Shown piece after piece: positions 62,068 to 62,784 of a DNA stretch of 64,000 bases (the first letter of the stretch is position 1; each line of letters opens with the position of its first letter). Both the position numbers and the translations under genes were made by a program. This stretch comes from Lactobacillales bacterium (lineage in GTDB: Bacteria; Bacillota_I; Bacilli_A; RF39; UBA660), in assembly GCA_015059545.1 (NCBI GenBank), contig SVAG01000003.1:1-64000 (forward strand), read 5' to 3'. Under the pieces are notes generated by a model, which was not told the DNA's origin, did no database searches, and worked only from the letters and a program-made list of their open reading frames with translations.

Positions 62068-62784
62068 ATGGAAGAAAAAGAAATAAAAAAAGAATGTAAT
62101 TGTGATCAAACATGTGATTGTGGTTGTAATGAAGGATTAGAATGTACATGTGAAGAAAATTGTAATTGTGGATGTACATGTGGTGATGAATGTAATTGTA
62201 CAGAAGAAGAAAACTGTGGATGTAATCATGAATGCAATTGTGATGATGAATGTTCATGTGGTGAGACATGCGAATGTGATCATGAATCATGTGAATGTGA
62301 TTCAAAAAAAGATAAAAAAAGAAAAAGTAAAAAAGATCAAATAAAAGATGCTGAAGCAAAAATAAAAGAATTAGAAGATAAATTATTAAGAGAAAAAGCA
62401 GAACTTATTAATTATAGAAGAAGAAAAGATGATGAAGTATCAAGAATGTTAAAATATTGTAATGAAGATTTAATATTAGAATTGCTTCCATTAATTGATA
62501 ATTTTGAAAGTGCTATTAAAATGGATGATACTAATTTAGAAGATGAAGTATCAAAATTCTTACAAGGATTTAAAATGATATATGCAAATCTACTTTCAAC
62601 ATTTGAAAAATTTGATATAAGACCAATTGATGGTGTTAATAAACCATTTGATCCAACTTATCATCAAGCTGTAATGACAGAAAAATGTGATAAGGAATCA
62701 GGAATAGTAATTGATGTACTTAGAAAAGGATATCTTTTAAAAGATAAAGTTATAAGACCAGCTATGGTCAAAGTAAGCGAATAG
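62068..62784 (+). CDS. grpE: GrpE nucleotide exchange factor with Cys-rich N-terminal extension
   Basis: A 238-residue protein. The C-terminal 150 residues are GrpE: a long helix ([34 protein letters not shown]), the four-helix bundle and the beta domain ending [15 protein letters not shown]-like. The first 78 residues contain 23 Cys, mostly in C-x-C pairs (for example [13 protein letters not shown]) with acidic and Asn residues between, then a K-rich linker. This head resembles a metallothionein. The main GrpE part is complete and normal. It exchanges ADP on DnaK; the extension may bind metal or sense oxidation, but no such function is known. The ATG at 62068 follows AAGGAGA. Confidence 0.9.

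Follow-up and report, generated by a model that had tools for sequence, protein, structure and literature searches.

The GrpE protein encoded in the window, that is, the whole 64,000-nucleotide stretch of DNA analyzed here, carries a Cys-rich N-terminal head that is real, conserved and under selection. The reading that we favor, with fair confidence, is that this head is a mobile metallothionein-like module that binds a soft metal and has become joined to GrpE, one form of a module family that also includes small free proteins and tails of other housekeeping proteins, and that it would serve as a buffer that rises with stress and is carried mainly by GrpE.

An ordinary GrpE with a Cys-rich head

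An initial reading made from the sequence only had claimed 23 Cys, mostly in C-x-C pairs, within residues 1–78 of this GrpE, and both the count and the pattern were confirmed in the reading frame (Table 1). Cys makes up 1.03% of this proteome, and the chance of at least 23 Cys in 78 residues is ~4e-27. A scan of the genome (1.19 Mb in 11 contigs, with 72 kb of contig C11 masked) evidenced 20 Cys per 60 amino acids in the head vs 10 in the next-best protein, and 13 C-x-C occurrences vs 2. The remainder of the protein had been taken for an ordinary GrpE, as Pfam indeed recognized it (PF01025, residues 79–238, E 4.6e-49, profile positions 7–165 of 165), in agreement with NCBIfam and with comparison to the PDB. 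AlphaFold2, run on 70 sequences, predicted for this domain a helix from residue 78, helices up to 181 and a beta part thereafter, with pLDDT mostly >90, and predicted the head to be disordered (pLDDT about 40–70). In its core domain, operon and predicted fold the protein thus resembles ordinary bacterial GrpE, but the tail of the latter is usually acidic and often contains a hydrophobic DnaK-binding pair. Here the tail is Cys-rich and has no such pair, and hence no Glu-flanked hydrophobic motif for DnaK binding, a feature common in GrpEs though not strictly defining.

The operon is likewise the ordinary hrcA-grpE-dnaK arrangement that the sequence-only reading had described, as revealed by Pfam matches to HrcA, GrpE and HSP70 and by a predicted CIRCE operator, an organization in keeping with a GrpE nucleotide exchange factor. 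The gap between hrcA and grpE is 9 nt, with an RBS (AGGAG) immediately 5' of the grpE ATG; the dnaK reading frame opens at 62790, its ATG being probable at 62802. A second, weaker CIRCE-like site lies at 61030–61056, and CIRCE-type sites with up to four mismatches were found at 58 of 59 related loci. The CIRCE site likely reflects control by HrcA. Because it precedes hrcA and a similar site recurs at nearly all of the related loci, the Cys-rich head is probably made under this control. Past the window, a gene for an M3-family oligopeptidase separates dnaK from dnaJ (contig C2 of the same genome, 64674–66476). Elsewhere in the window, SpoIIGA (PF03419, E 3.7e-45) is followed by a sigma-70-type factor at 58063–59620, a SpoIIGA-sigma pair in a genome of this small size. 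Positions 52282–54885 hold a peptidase C39 ABC transporter (Pfam) and then small ORFs, among them an ORF whose leader is double-glycine-like (MKKLDNKELYNIVGG); together these make a probable bacteriocin locus.

Table 1. Features of the grpE region in the window and loci carrying the module in related genomes.
Feature	Position or locus	Strand	Details
CIRCE operator (predicted HrcA binding site)	60983..61009	+	TTAGCACTC-N9-CAATGCTAA, 2 mismatches
hrcA, heat-shock repressor	61069..62058	+	Pfam HrcA E 3.8e-50
grpE with Cys-rich head	62068..62784	+	238 aa; ATG start
Cys-rich head, residues 1–78	62068..62301	+	23 Cys, mainly C-x-C
Core module, residues 10–28	62095..62151	+	Also in free-standing proteins and in the tails of HisRS and ferredoxin
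GrpE domain	62302..62781	+	Pfam; AlphaFold2; closest solved structure 4ani
dnaK	62790..64000, runs past window end	+	Pfam HSP70 E 5e-186
Free module proteins	L334, L338, L339, L340, L342, L343, L344, L346, L351, L354, L357, L363
HisRS with module as C-terminal tail	L348, L350, L352, L355		TIGR00442 E 1.6e-137 for L348
4Fe-4S ferredoxin with module as C-terminal tail	L356, L358, L359
CsoR-family repressor gene, free Cys module and terminator-like hairpin	L342:1495-1948

Selection on the Cys codons and spread of the head among relatives

Selection was evident in the heads of two relatives, L061 and L094 (core identity 0.89), which retain 15 of 15 Cys with eight synonymous TGT/TGC changes and no nonsynonymous ones, whereas the other head codons differ by 26 nonsynonymous and 18 synonymous changes. 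Across eight pairs, compared from the first to the last Cys, the Cys columns were less often nonsynonymous (p about 2e-5). The Cys codons thus do not show the random substitution that the sequence-only reading had named as an outcome that would speak against it. The other such outcome, a reading frame not conserved in relatives, was not observed either, since each of the five genomes of the genus encodes a GrpE head with Cys (23, 14, 13, 13 and 6). The search for N-terminal Cys-rich variants that it had proposed was also productive: 61 of 135 distinct GrpEs of the family have at least four Cys in the head, up to a maximum of 25, and 66 have at least four Cys or at least eight His, counts that rest on automatic choice of the start and are slightly low, the start of L055 (a true His/Cys head) having been misassigned. 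Beyond the family, three of 67 GrpEs from other families of the class have four Cys in the head and none has more. The close relatives are uncultured Bacilli, several of them from animal rectum samples, and most of the genomes compared are metagenome assemblies. As a separate observation, GrpE tails of another family of the class, f11 (L253, L255, L257, L260, L261, L263 and L264), have a small Cys cluster in common (CCQE, CCDENCECEN).

Within the family, the trait is labile and its composition varies. On a GrpE-core tree, which rests on 136 columns, it requires 27 changes, at least nine of them forced by well-supported branches, so that it has often been gained or lost. The number of repeats in the head varies even within a single assembly, as evidenced by a 42-nt duplication that distinguishes L006 from L033. 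Two heads (L074 and L083) are His-rich, with 24–26 His and no Cys at all, and four others (L014, L015, L048 and L055) contain both His and Cys, the repeats themselves being mixed in L048 and L055.

Copies of the module outside GrpE

The core motif of the head, CxCxxxCxCGCxEGxECTC, is also found outside GrpE. The head used as query in 291 family genomes retrieved short ORFs that stand alone and contain this motif, and a profile (A2) search found further copies. Together, these are free-standing homologues of 39–62 aa in about a dozen genomes and C-terminal tails of histidyl-tRNA synthetase (HisRS) and of a 4Fe-4S ferredoxin (Table 1). The copies have non-Cys residues in common as well (CxCGCxEGxECTC); indeed, a CxCGCxEGxxCxC-type motif occurs in 7 of 26 Cys-rich heads vs 0.008 expected with the Cys positions fixed. 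Because the module also sits on HisRS and ferredoxin, the head is not special to GrpE, which looks like one carrier among several. A sample of 372 genomes of the phylum yielded the module only in this genome and in a single relative, apart from a 26-aa ORF of another family (L364), and plasmid and phage records gave no match. Three viral contigs in which an unrelated protein contains a short, superficially similar run of Cys were set aside as convergent.

The HisRS of this genome, recognized by sequence motif only, has no Cys-rich tail. In two genomes with tailed HisRS, the grpE reading is broken (G661, with L355) or no GrpE was found (G017, with L352). Strict complementarity between a free or otherwise placed module and a Cys-rich GrpE was considered and rejected: the GrpE head is Cys-free in 13 of 17 module carriers with a readable GrpE (p 0.09–0.12), and G022 and G687 have both. 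At L360 (1486–1674), a short Cys module is joined to a hydrophobic stretch resembling a membrane helix (CCTEECTCGCMDGYECTC...), possibly a membrane-anchored form. A 349-aa putative membrane protein of family f15 (L312 in G540, its frame open with genetic code 4) contains an internal C-x-C run that matches the head weakly (E 7e-4) and is perhaps convergent.

The head is short, Cys-dense, rich in C-x-C and predicted to be disordered, as are the Pfam metallothionein families, and thereby has the features expected of a metallothionein, a polypeptide devoid of a stable apo fold; the small size of its free homologues fits as well. Unlike those families, neither the head alone nor the free homologues matched any Pfam or NCBIfam profile above threshold, the nearest being sub-threshold Metallothio_5 matches of two related sequences (E 0.9 and 0.049), and a module profile found no relative in the PDB. 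A search of open-licence literature for GrpE together with metallothionein, metal-binding or zinc returned nothing relevant.

A link to metal was uncovered at L342, where a CsoR-family gene (PF02583, E 2.4e-27) is followed, after 7 nt, by a free module that has an RBS of its own and a terminator-like hairpin downstream. The CsoR-family protein, whose nearest NCBIfam model is RicR (under its cut-off), carries a C-x-H-x-C layout, a spacing that we take to be that of Cu(I)-sensing CsoR proteins. This locus is a candidate metal-responsive metallothionein operon. It recalls M. tuberculosis, in which RicR, a CsoR-family repressor, controls mymT, encoding a small copper metallothionein (PMC4801387); the likeness is one of gene context, and a difference from MymT is that the module described here occurs on GrpE, HisRS and ferredoxin as well. 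Adjacency to CsoR was seen for this one free copy only; the grpE gene of the window does not adjoin such a sensor, and a search of this genome outside the masked 72 kb turned up no CsoR-like gene. No P1B metal pump matched above cut-off in this genome, and the same-genus genome with the 6-Cys head gave two P1B matches. Across the family, an inverse link between P1B pumps and Cys-rich heads was weak, with raw p values of 0.04–0.06 at high thresholds and no signal at lower ones, and was unsupported on independent pairs; being dependent on threshold and lost once phylogeny is considered, it is a mere lead.

A proposed metal buffer on GrpE and its alternatives

The sequence-only reading had offered a metal-binding or redox-sensing head. 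The first part is upheld by the C-x-C pattern, the selection on Cys codons, the exchange of Cys for His, the free homologues and the CsoR neighbor, all of which argue for a head that would bind metal, whereas the second runs against the scarcity of C-x-x-C and the His-rich relatives. We propose that the head binds a thiophilic metal, for which Cu(I) is our best guess, with Zn or Cd also possible. With grpE in an operon that HrcA probably controls, the head could be a metal buffer whose amount rises with proteotoxic stress, GrpE would be mainly its carrier, and the GrpE core would go on exchanging nucleotides as usual.

Alternatively, the head might be a regulator gated by metal or thiol chemistry: metal bound to it would alter the action of GrpE on DnaK, for instance by freeing or blocking access of the tail to the DnaK substrate-binding domain, and chaperone cycling would follow metal stress, much as the sequence-only reading had envisaged. 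In E. coli, the disordered N-tail of GrpE does bind this domain, via a hydrophobic motif flanked by Glu, and is tied to substrate release (PMC12915176). Besides, a hydrophobic pair occurs in the tail of 2 of 61 Cys-rich vs 18 of 69 Cys-poor family heads (p about 4e-4), and the general lack of this pair from Cys-rich heads suggests that tail function may have changed, perhaps toward a part in substrate release that is set by metal. On the other hand, the module does not need GrpE, as it is found on HisRS, on ferredoxin and free; GrpE lacks it in about half of the family, and head length and Cys number shift fast. A metal-gated effect of the head on DnaK is therefore possible, though we hold it to be unlikely. 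The same doubt attaches to the more ambitious proposal of a new metallothionein family acting in reduced-genome gut bacteria as a mobile add-on to the essential proteins GrpE and HisRS and to a ferredoxin, with Cys and His interchangeable, and rendering the DnaK cycle metal-responsive when placed on GrpE.

A redox sensor, in which disulfides formed between Cys pairs under oxidative stress would alter GrpE, might be anticipated from the density of Cys in a cytosolic stress protein and from a glutathione peroxidase gene near one free module (L334). Cys spacing nonetheless makes this quite improbable: C-x-C is enriched in the heads (z +15), but C-x-x-C is depleted (z −11.6) and C-C is under-represented. 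This spacing, along with the use of His in related heads, some of which have no Cys, fits metal ligands better than disulfide chemistry; moreover, the free homologue L342 sits after a metal-sensor gene. We see just as little prospect for a metallochaperone or local donor whose metal would be destined for a partner, or for clients of DnaK, instead of being buffered in bulk. The carriers of the tails are indeed specific proteins and include an Fe-S ferredoxin, but they have no evident metal need in common, and a common delivery partner is unlikely because the module is found on HisRS, on GrpE and free. Least probable is neutral low-complexity drift, a functionless expansion of repeats in a disordered tail, which would fit the variable repeat number and the frequent gain or loss of the head but is at odds with strong selection on Cys codons, non-random Cys spacing and the non-Cys residues common to heads and free proteins.

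Among co-chaperones with a metal-binding extension, the nearest precedent is Helicobacter pylori HspA, a GroES to which a His/Cys-rich extension has likewise been added; its C-terminal domain B binds nickel and has a role in nickel storage and detoxification (PMC5116745). The module described here may work alike, but it falls outside the HspA type, with GrpE as carrier instead of GroES, an N-terminal instead of a C-terminal position, and C-x-C pairs with as many as 25 Cys where HspA has 4 Cys and 8 His. We know of no domain B copies that stand alone or have been shuffled onto other proteins.

These findings bear on the role of the poorly conserved GrpE tail, which work in E. coli links to DnaK substrate release (PMC12915176), and they bring forward a small module family without an entry in the libraries searched (Pfam, NCBIfam and PDB). 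Metallothioneins are known as free proteins. If our reading is right, their attachment to a tRNA synthetase, to a ferredoxin and to a core factor of the chaperone machinery would represent a novel organization of metal buffering, which on GrpE would be coupled to heat-shock control. Collectively, the distribution of the module suggests that ordinary proteins of these uncultured gut bacteria are fitted with a metal buffer.
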